Below, in pieces: positions 52,119 to 54,149 of a DNA stretch of 54,149 nucleotides. Location: contig VXNP01000153.1 of NCBI GenBank assembly GCA_009840525.1, forward strand, positions 1-54,149. Direction: 5' to 3'. The notes under the pieces were generated by a model. The model saw only the letters and a list, made by a program, of their open reading frames with translations, was not told where the DNA came from and did not search any database. The translations under genes and the position numbers were made by a program. Each line of letters starts with the position of its first letter. Within the stretch, counting starts at the first letter, position 1. Origin of the DNA: Gammaproteobacteria bacterium (GTDB lineage Bacteria; Gemmatimonadota; Gemmatimonadetes; Longimicrobiales; Gaopeijiaceae).

Positions 52119-52131
52119 GCGGAGCGCTGTG

Positions 52132-54074
52132 ATGACTGATTGGGACATCGCGAGGCGCGCGGCGGCGGTCGGTCTTGCATTTCTGGCCCTGGCTGGCCCC
52201 GTCGGCCTCGCGGCCCAGTCGACGGACGGCGCGCCCGGGCTCGATCGGGTGCTGGCGTTCCCCGCTGCGGTGGCCGAGGAGCGGCTCGATCCCGACCGGG
52301 GCGCGATGGGGGCCTGGCAGCGCATCCTCAAGCTCGGCACGACCGCGAGCCTCCTCCATGTGACCGCCCATCCCGACGACGAAAACTCGGGCATGCTCAC
52401 GTTCGCCAGCCGCGGCTGGGGGGCGCGCACCGCACTTCTGAGCCTGAACCGGGGTGAGGCCGGCGCCAACGCGATCGGCCCCGAACTCTTCGACGGCCTC
52501 GGGTTGATCCGCACGCGCGAGCTGGTCCTGGCCGGCCGCTACTACGGCCTGGACGACCTCTACTTCACCACGGCCGTGGATTACGGCTACTCCAAGTCGG
52601 TCGAGGAAGCCTACCGGAGCTGGGACCCGGAAGCCGTGCTGGAGGACATGGTGCGGGTGGTGCGCCTGAACCGCCCGCTGGTGGTGGTGGCCCGATTCCA
52701 CGGGTCGAGACGCGATGGACACGGACACCATCATGCTTCCGGATTGCTGACGCCGGAGGCGGTGGAGGCGGCTGCGGATCCGGCGCGGTTCCCGGGACAG
52801 ATCGGGCAGGAGGGGCTCAGGCCGTGGCGGGTGCTGCGCACCTACCGCGGCGGGATTCGCGTGGACGAGCCATTTCACGTGCAGGTGGACGCCCGCGGGG
52901 AGAGTCCGTGGGTCGGTACCAGCTTTCAGGCATGGGCCAGCCGGGGGCTCGGTCTCCAGCGCTCGCAGACGGCGGGACGGGTGCGCGTCGGGGGCGGGCT
53001 CTATCGATACGAGCTTCGGGATGGGGGCGGGAGCACGGATGGGAGCGGGTCGGCGGACGCGCGCGGGCGCGGCGATGAAGCTTTGCCCGCGAGTCAGGCC
53101 GAGGAATCCTTCTTTGCCGGCCTGGACACTTCGCTGAACGGGCTCCCCGCTCTGCTGGGCGAGCCGGTGAGCCCGGAGACCAGCGCGTTGCTGGCGCGGC
53201 TTCAGGGACTGGTCGATGAGGTCGCCGCCGGGTTCGACTTCCGTGCTCCGGGACAGTCCGTACCGGATCTGGTGCGGGGTCTCGGTCTGTTGCGGTCCGC
53301 GATTGCGTCCTCGATGGGCGCACCCGAGACCCAGTTCCAGTTGCGGCTGAAGGAACGGCAGGTCGAAGACGCCATCGCCGCCGCGAGCGGCCTTCTCGTC
53401 GAGGCGGGACTGCCGGGTGGGGCGAGCGGCGCGGTGGTTGTGCCCGGCCAGAGTCTGGCGGTCGGAATCGCGGTCGAGGTGACCGTGGCGGCAGGTGTCG
53501 GGGTCTCGGAGGCCCGGGTCGTCGACCGGGCCGGGGTCGTGGTGGGGCGGACTTCCGACTTCGCTGCGACAGGGAGCGGCTTTGCGGCCGAGACGGAGCT
53601 GCGCATGCCCGAGGTGGATGCCGATGCGGACGCCGAGGCGAGGGCGGCCGCCCCCTACTTCGCCCGCGACGGGATCGCCCAGAACCACTACCAGGTGGCG
53701 GATTCGGCGGACCTGCACCTTCCGTGGCGGCGACCCGCCCTGTCGGTTGCCGTCGACCTGGTGGTGGAGGGGACAACCATAGTGTACACCGTCCCCGTCA
53801 CCGCCCCGGTGCCCCGCCTGCCGTACGGGTCGGTGACGCGCCCGGTCGAGGTGCTGCCCGCCCTTTCGGTTGTGGTCGACCCCCCCGTGCGGGTGGTTCC
53901 CGTGGAGGTGCCGGCCGCGCCACCCGGCGACGCGCAACCGGGCAGTCCCACCGCCACATCCGACGGCCCCACCGCGCCGGCGAACGGACAGCCGGGCCGC
54001 CCCACCACCACATCCGACCGCCCGGCCGCCTCGGCGAGCCCCCAGGCGGTCGCCATTCCCATCCAGGTGCGCGT
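52132..54074 (+). CDS. PIG-L/LmbE-family deacetylase, truncated by the contig end
   Basis: This zinc-dependent de-N-acetylase starts at an ATG (GGAG seven bases upstream). A signal peptide ends in AGPVGLAAQS, so it is exported. The PIG-L domain (about 70-250) has AHPDDE (79-84) with the metal Asp and His, RRTRE-like LIRTREL, and GHGHHHASG near 195-205. A long C-terminal beta-rich and Pro-rich extension follows. The real sequence probably runs only to about 54074; the last residues before the apparent stop at 54141 come from adapter sequence. The true C-terminus is missing. Confidence 0.83.
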
Positions 54075-54149
54075 CTGTATGATATACAAAACGTACGCGT
54101 CCGGAGATGATAGGCGTGTAGAACTCGGTGGTAGACGTTAGAATAAAAA
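54075..54149 (+). other. Adapter-derived sequence at the contig end
   Basis: The last 75 bases align without gaps to the Nextera transposase end and i5 tail: 33 bases (22 matches), an 8-base index-like stretch (54108-54115), then 34 bases (27 matches) with GTGTAGA, CTCGGTGGT and terminal AAAAA. The comparison relies on the adapter sequence as I remember it. The mismatches look like sequencing errors. Confidence 0.85.

Follow-up and report, generated by a model that had tools for sequence, protein, structure and literature searches.

The closest described counterpart of the sequence discussed here is not a gene, but a laboratory construct. In a tagmentation library of the Nextera type, a read that runs off the end of its insert into the i5 arm meets the mosaic end, a linker, an 8-base index, the complement of P5 and finally poly-A, in that order; the i5 primer, linker and mosaic end oligos are those given in PMC6791352. 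The second point of comparison is the PIG-L (GlcNAc-PI de-N-acetylase) family, Pfam PF02585, with which the gene at the end of our DNA shares its domain (residues 76-211). The window, by which we mean the whole stretch of DNA that was analysed, is 54,149 bases long and is the entire contig C124 of genome G000. Its final 75 bases, 54075-54149, are therefore also the final 75 bases of the contig, and they carry the parts of an i5 read-through in the same order, at the same spacing and of the same length, without gaps. They depart from it by about 27% substitutions, which is probably why trimming failed. That this tail is low-quality Illumina read-through from a Nextera library that was never removed, and that it falsely truncates the PIG-L gene, is about as close to certain as we are prepared to go. 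The finding is an artefact and holds no biological novelty. The features are as follows.

52129..54075, plus strand: genuine 5' part of a PIG-L deacetylase-family gene, 649 codons (PF02585; homologues; joined open reading frame)
54022..54075, plus strand: 54 bases matching the terminus of contig C30 exactly (C30:27987-28040, minus strand; BLAST)
54076..54141, plus strand: false 3' end of the open reading frame, 21 artificial codons (650-670) plus a spurious TAG stop
54075..54093, plus strand: Nextera mosaic end CTGTCTCTTATACACATCT, 13 of 19 bases agree
54094..54107, plus strand: Nextera i5 linker GACGCTGCCGACGA, 9 of 14 agree (oligo sequence: PMC6791352)
54108..54115, plus strand: i5 index slot TGATAGGC, 5 of 8 agree with the reverse complement of S517 TCTTACGC
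54116..54144, plus strand: reverse complement of the Illumina P5 primer, 22 of 29 agree; 3 mismatches to a 21-base P5 pattern
54145..54149, plus strand: poly-A, base-called beyond the end of the library molecule, 5 of 5

The i5 read-through matches the tail at 49 of 67 defined positions (18 mismatches). Shuffling the tail 20,000 times gave a chance level of 16.5 +/- 3.5 and a maximum of 30, and the next best site for the adapter on either strand of the window scores 32. The gapless 75-base fit to transposase end, 8-base index and i5 tail that had been proposed from the letters alone in an earlier note is thus borne out. The tail points outward, ending on the last base of the contig, and its GC content is 43% against 67% for the window. 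A 21-base P5 pattern allowed 3 mismatches recovers it from the whole 4-Mb genome. Runs of A comparable to the one that closes it also lie behind the adapter at contigs C120, C122, C3 and C127. The Nextera i7 arm was tried as well and fits this contig end far more poorly than i5, at 25 of 63.

The open reading frame at 52129-54141 enters the tail and takes its stop, a TAG at 54139, from within it. Its PF02585 match (E 1.7e-13) scores 51.6 bits, above the curated cut-off of 28.2. We also considered the mycothiol enzymes Mca and MshB as its identity, and rejected them at 24.8 and 24 bits against NCBIfam equivalog cut-offs of 277 and 224. The other 310 codons of the gene are found elsewhere in the genome, on contig C30. 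A BLAST search of the genome with the end of the window returned the terminus of C30 at 100% identity over 54 bases (E 3.5e-21), and this overlap sits at the very end of that 28,040-base contig. Identity stops exactly at 54075. From 54076 the two contigs diverge, C30 staying in frame with coding sequence that is GC-rich and unrelated to the tail. An overlap followed by divergence at the point where the adapter begins supports the adapter reading. As a separate observation, C124 and C30 are neighbours in the genome, and their 54-base exact overlap allows the two to be joined.

Joining them gives an open reading frame of 959 amino acids, long for a PIG-L family product and carrying a C-terminal extension. 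The joined protein is 86-94% identical, over essentially its full length, to homologues at 11 loci. Most of these are in metagenome-assembled genomes of related Gemmatimonadota, and not all are independent, some being one genome present in both collections. From residue 601 to the end, a stretch that spans the junction, identity to relatives is 87-93%; for the part of the gene in the window, homologues in the best same-genus genomes are 84-91% identical. The window's own version of the protein agrees with relatives only to about residue 650, which makes residues 650-670 (CMIYKTYASGDDRRVELGGRR) artificial, together with the TAG at 54139. The claim that the PIG-L gene is falsely terminated therefore stands, and in related genomes the homologues follow the C30 reading, not the tail. 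Two details needed adjusting. Artificial residues had been put at about 22, and there are 21. Genomic sequence had been said to end at 54074, which holds, but 54075 serves equally well: that base is a C in the adapter and in C30 alike, so the last genomic base is one or the other, with 54075 common to genome and adapter.

In this Gemmatimonadota lineage the PIG-L gene is an ordinary one, and it is not the origin of the tail. Two records titled Gammaproteobacteria, JAPPJO010000082.1 and VYDD01000125.1, each encode a PIG-L protein that shares 91-96% identity with the Gemmatimonadota one, which suggests that the records are misnamed.

Could the tail simply be a genuine, AT-richer end of the PIG-L gene that happens to look like adapter? 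The frame does stay open for 21 codons into it. Against this, the fit of 49 of 67 lies far above chance, C30 supplies the true continuation and its reading is the one that homologues share, the C-terminal 310 residues are conserved in relatives, and our BLAST search of the genome found no second copy of the tail. We give this explanation next to no probability.

The adapter reading can also be judged from the rest of the assembly. We sampled 127 of the 310 contig ends of the genome as short stretches and scored them against two library-specific adapters. Error-rich Nextera tails were found at 14 of the 127, the end of C124 included (about 1 in 9), a count made with adapters that carry an index inferred from some of these same ends. 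All 14 outscore every control, whether a shuffled end (2,540 of them) or an interior stretch (708). When 108 ends were compared without regard to the index, largely the same list emerged, with most of the same ends ranked first. The earlier note had spoken of adapter read-through, and the equivalent tails at 13 other sampled ends, whose index bases indicate a single library, agree with it. Those 13 stretches are L082, L096, L072, L094, L041, L010, L098, L194, L013, L102, L108, L110 and L037. The i5 arm is seen at C19, C120, C9, C118, C80, C122, C136 and others, the i7 arm at C3 and C127. At the left end of the window no adapter scored above controls. Contig by contig, i5 or i7 tails also end C19, C120, C9, C118 (which has them at both ends), C122, C136 and C127, and stand at the starts of C80, C3, C133, C135 and C114.

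An adapter from a TruSeq library has as slim a chance of being correct as a genuine gene end. Its P5 part is common to TruSeq and Nextera, and largely through that shared part TruSeq i5 reaches 37 of 67 at the end of C124, compared with 49 for Nextera. The first 33 bases are Nextera-specific, however, with mosaic end and linker fitting Nextera, and at C19, C80, C9 and C120 the Nextera mosaic end or linker is nearly intact. Least probable of all is a real junction, whether a strain variant or a transposon end inserted in the gene: the Nextera mosaic end is engineered and derives from the Tn5 end sequence, so something Tn5-like could in principle exist in nature, but the fit runs on through a synthetic linker, index slot and P5 primer found in no natural transposon, the i7 arm turns up at other contig ends, and nothing inside the window scores comparably.

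With Nextera read-through as the preferred reading, the tails have something to say about the library itself. The indices S517 and N712 are both listed in PMC7589761. Taken jointly, the i5 slots of eight ends match S517 at 40 of 64 positions (runner-up i5 index, 23 of 64), and the i7 slots match N712 at 17 of 21 (runner-up, 10 of 21), with N712 exact at one end. By itself the C124 end agrees with the S517 complement at just 5 of 8 index bases, and S517 is most likely its i5 index. A single library predicts one index pair on unlinked contigs, which matches the pattern seen, and the index positions point to one library with i5 S517 and i7 N712.

The errors are just as telling. Where the tails differ from the adapter consensus, the change is a transversion 203 times and a transition 12 times, T to G being the commonest. 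Natural divergence is usually transition-rich. In two-dye Illumina imaging a transition (A-G or C-T) requires both channels to be wrong, while a single channel lost or gained yields a transversion; the T to G change is the loss of one dye. The excess of transversions fits base-calling noise, unlike evolutionary divergence, and suggests, without proving it, that the instrument was a two-dye one and that the read ends were of very low quality.

How might such a tail have come to be assembled? A short insert, shorter than the read length, would have ended at about base 54074, and the read would have continued into the adapter, passing mosaic end, i5 linker, i5 index and P5 complement before reaching poly-A, with some 27% of bases miscalled. 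Those errors probably hid the adapter from exact or near-exact trimming. The assembler would then have extended the contig into adapter and broken the PIG-L gene there. The 54-base overlap of C124 and C30 resembles a fork in the k-mer graph, in which one contig would be the adapter branch and C30, starting 54 bases upstream, the other. Forks of this kind may not be general: one is seen at C124/C30, and the adapter-bearing ends of C120, C19 and C118 have no exact overlapping partner contig in this genome.

The significance is one of data quality only. As assembled, the PIG-L gene breaks off at residue 649 of 959 and acquires a false C-terminus, and the break between C124 and C30 can be explained by the adapter tail. 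Elsewhere in the genome at least 13 further contig ends need trimming before annotation, and near-exact adapter screens overlook such error-rich tails. We found nothing directly on point in titles or abstracts when looking for reports of this problem in metagenome-assembled genomes. On balance we lean towards the view that error-rich, untrimmed adapter tails are a recurring reason why genes and contigs are broken in public assemblies of this kind, and an under-detected one. A search of 395 genomes of the phylum for the first 33 bases of the adapter, with at most 3 mismatches, hit 8 of them, and several of the matches lie no more than 90 bases from the start of a contig. G000 is absent from the eight: its tails are too error-rich for the 33-base test, which means that the true rate in the phylum is higher than 8 in 395. 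The eight genomes with Nextera i5 sequence are G105, G245, G256, G085, G029, G088, G230 and G103 (L179-L188); in G256 and G085 several contigs each carry it, and G105 has an exact 33-base copy.
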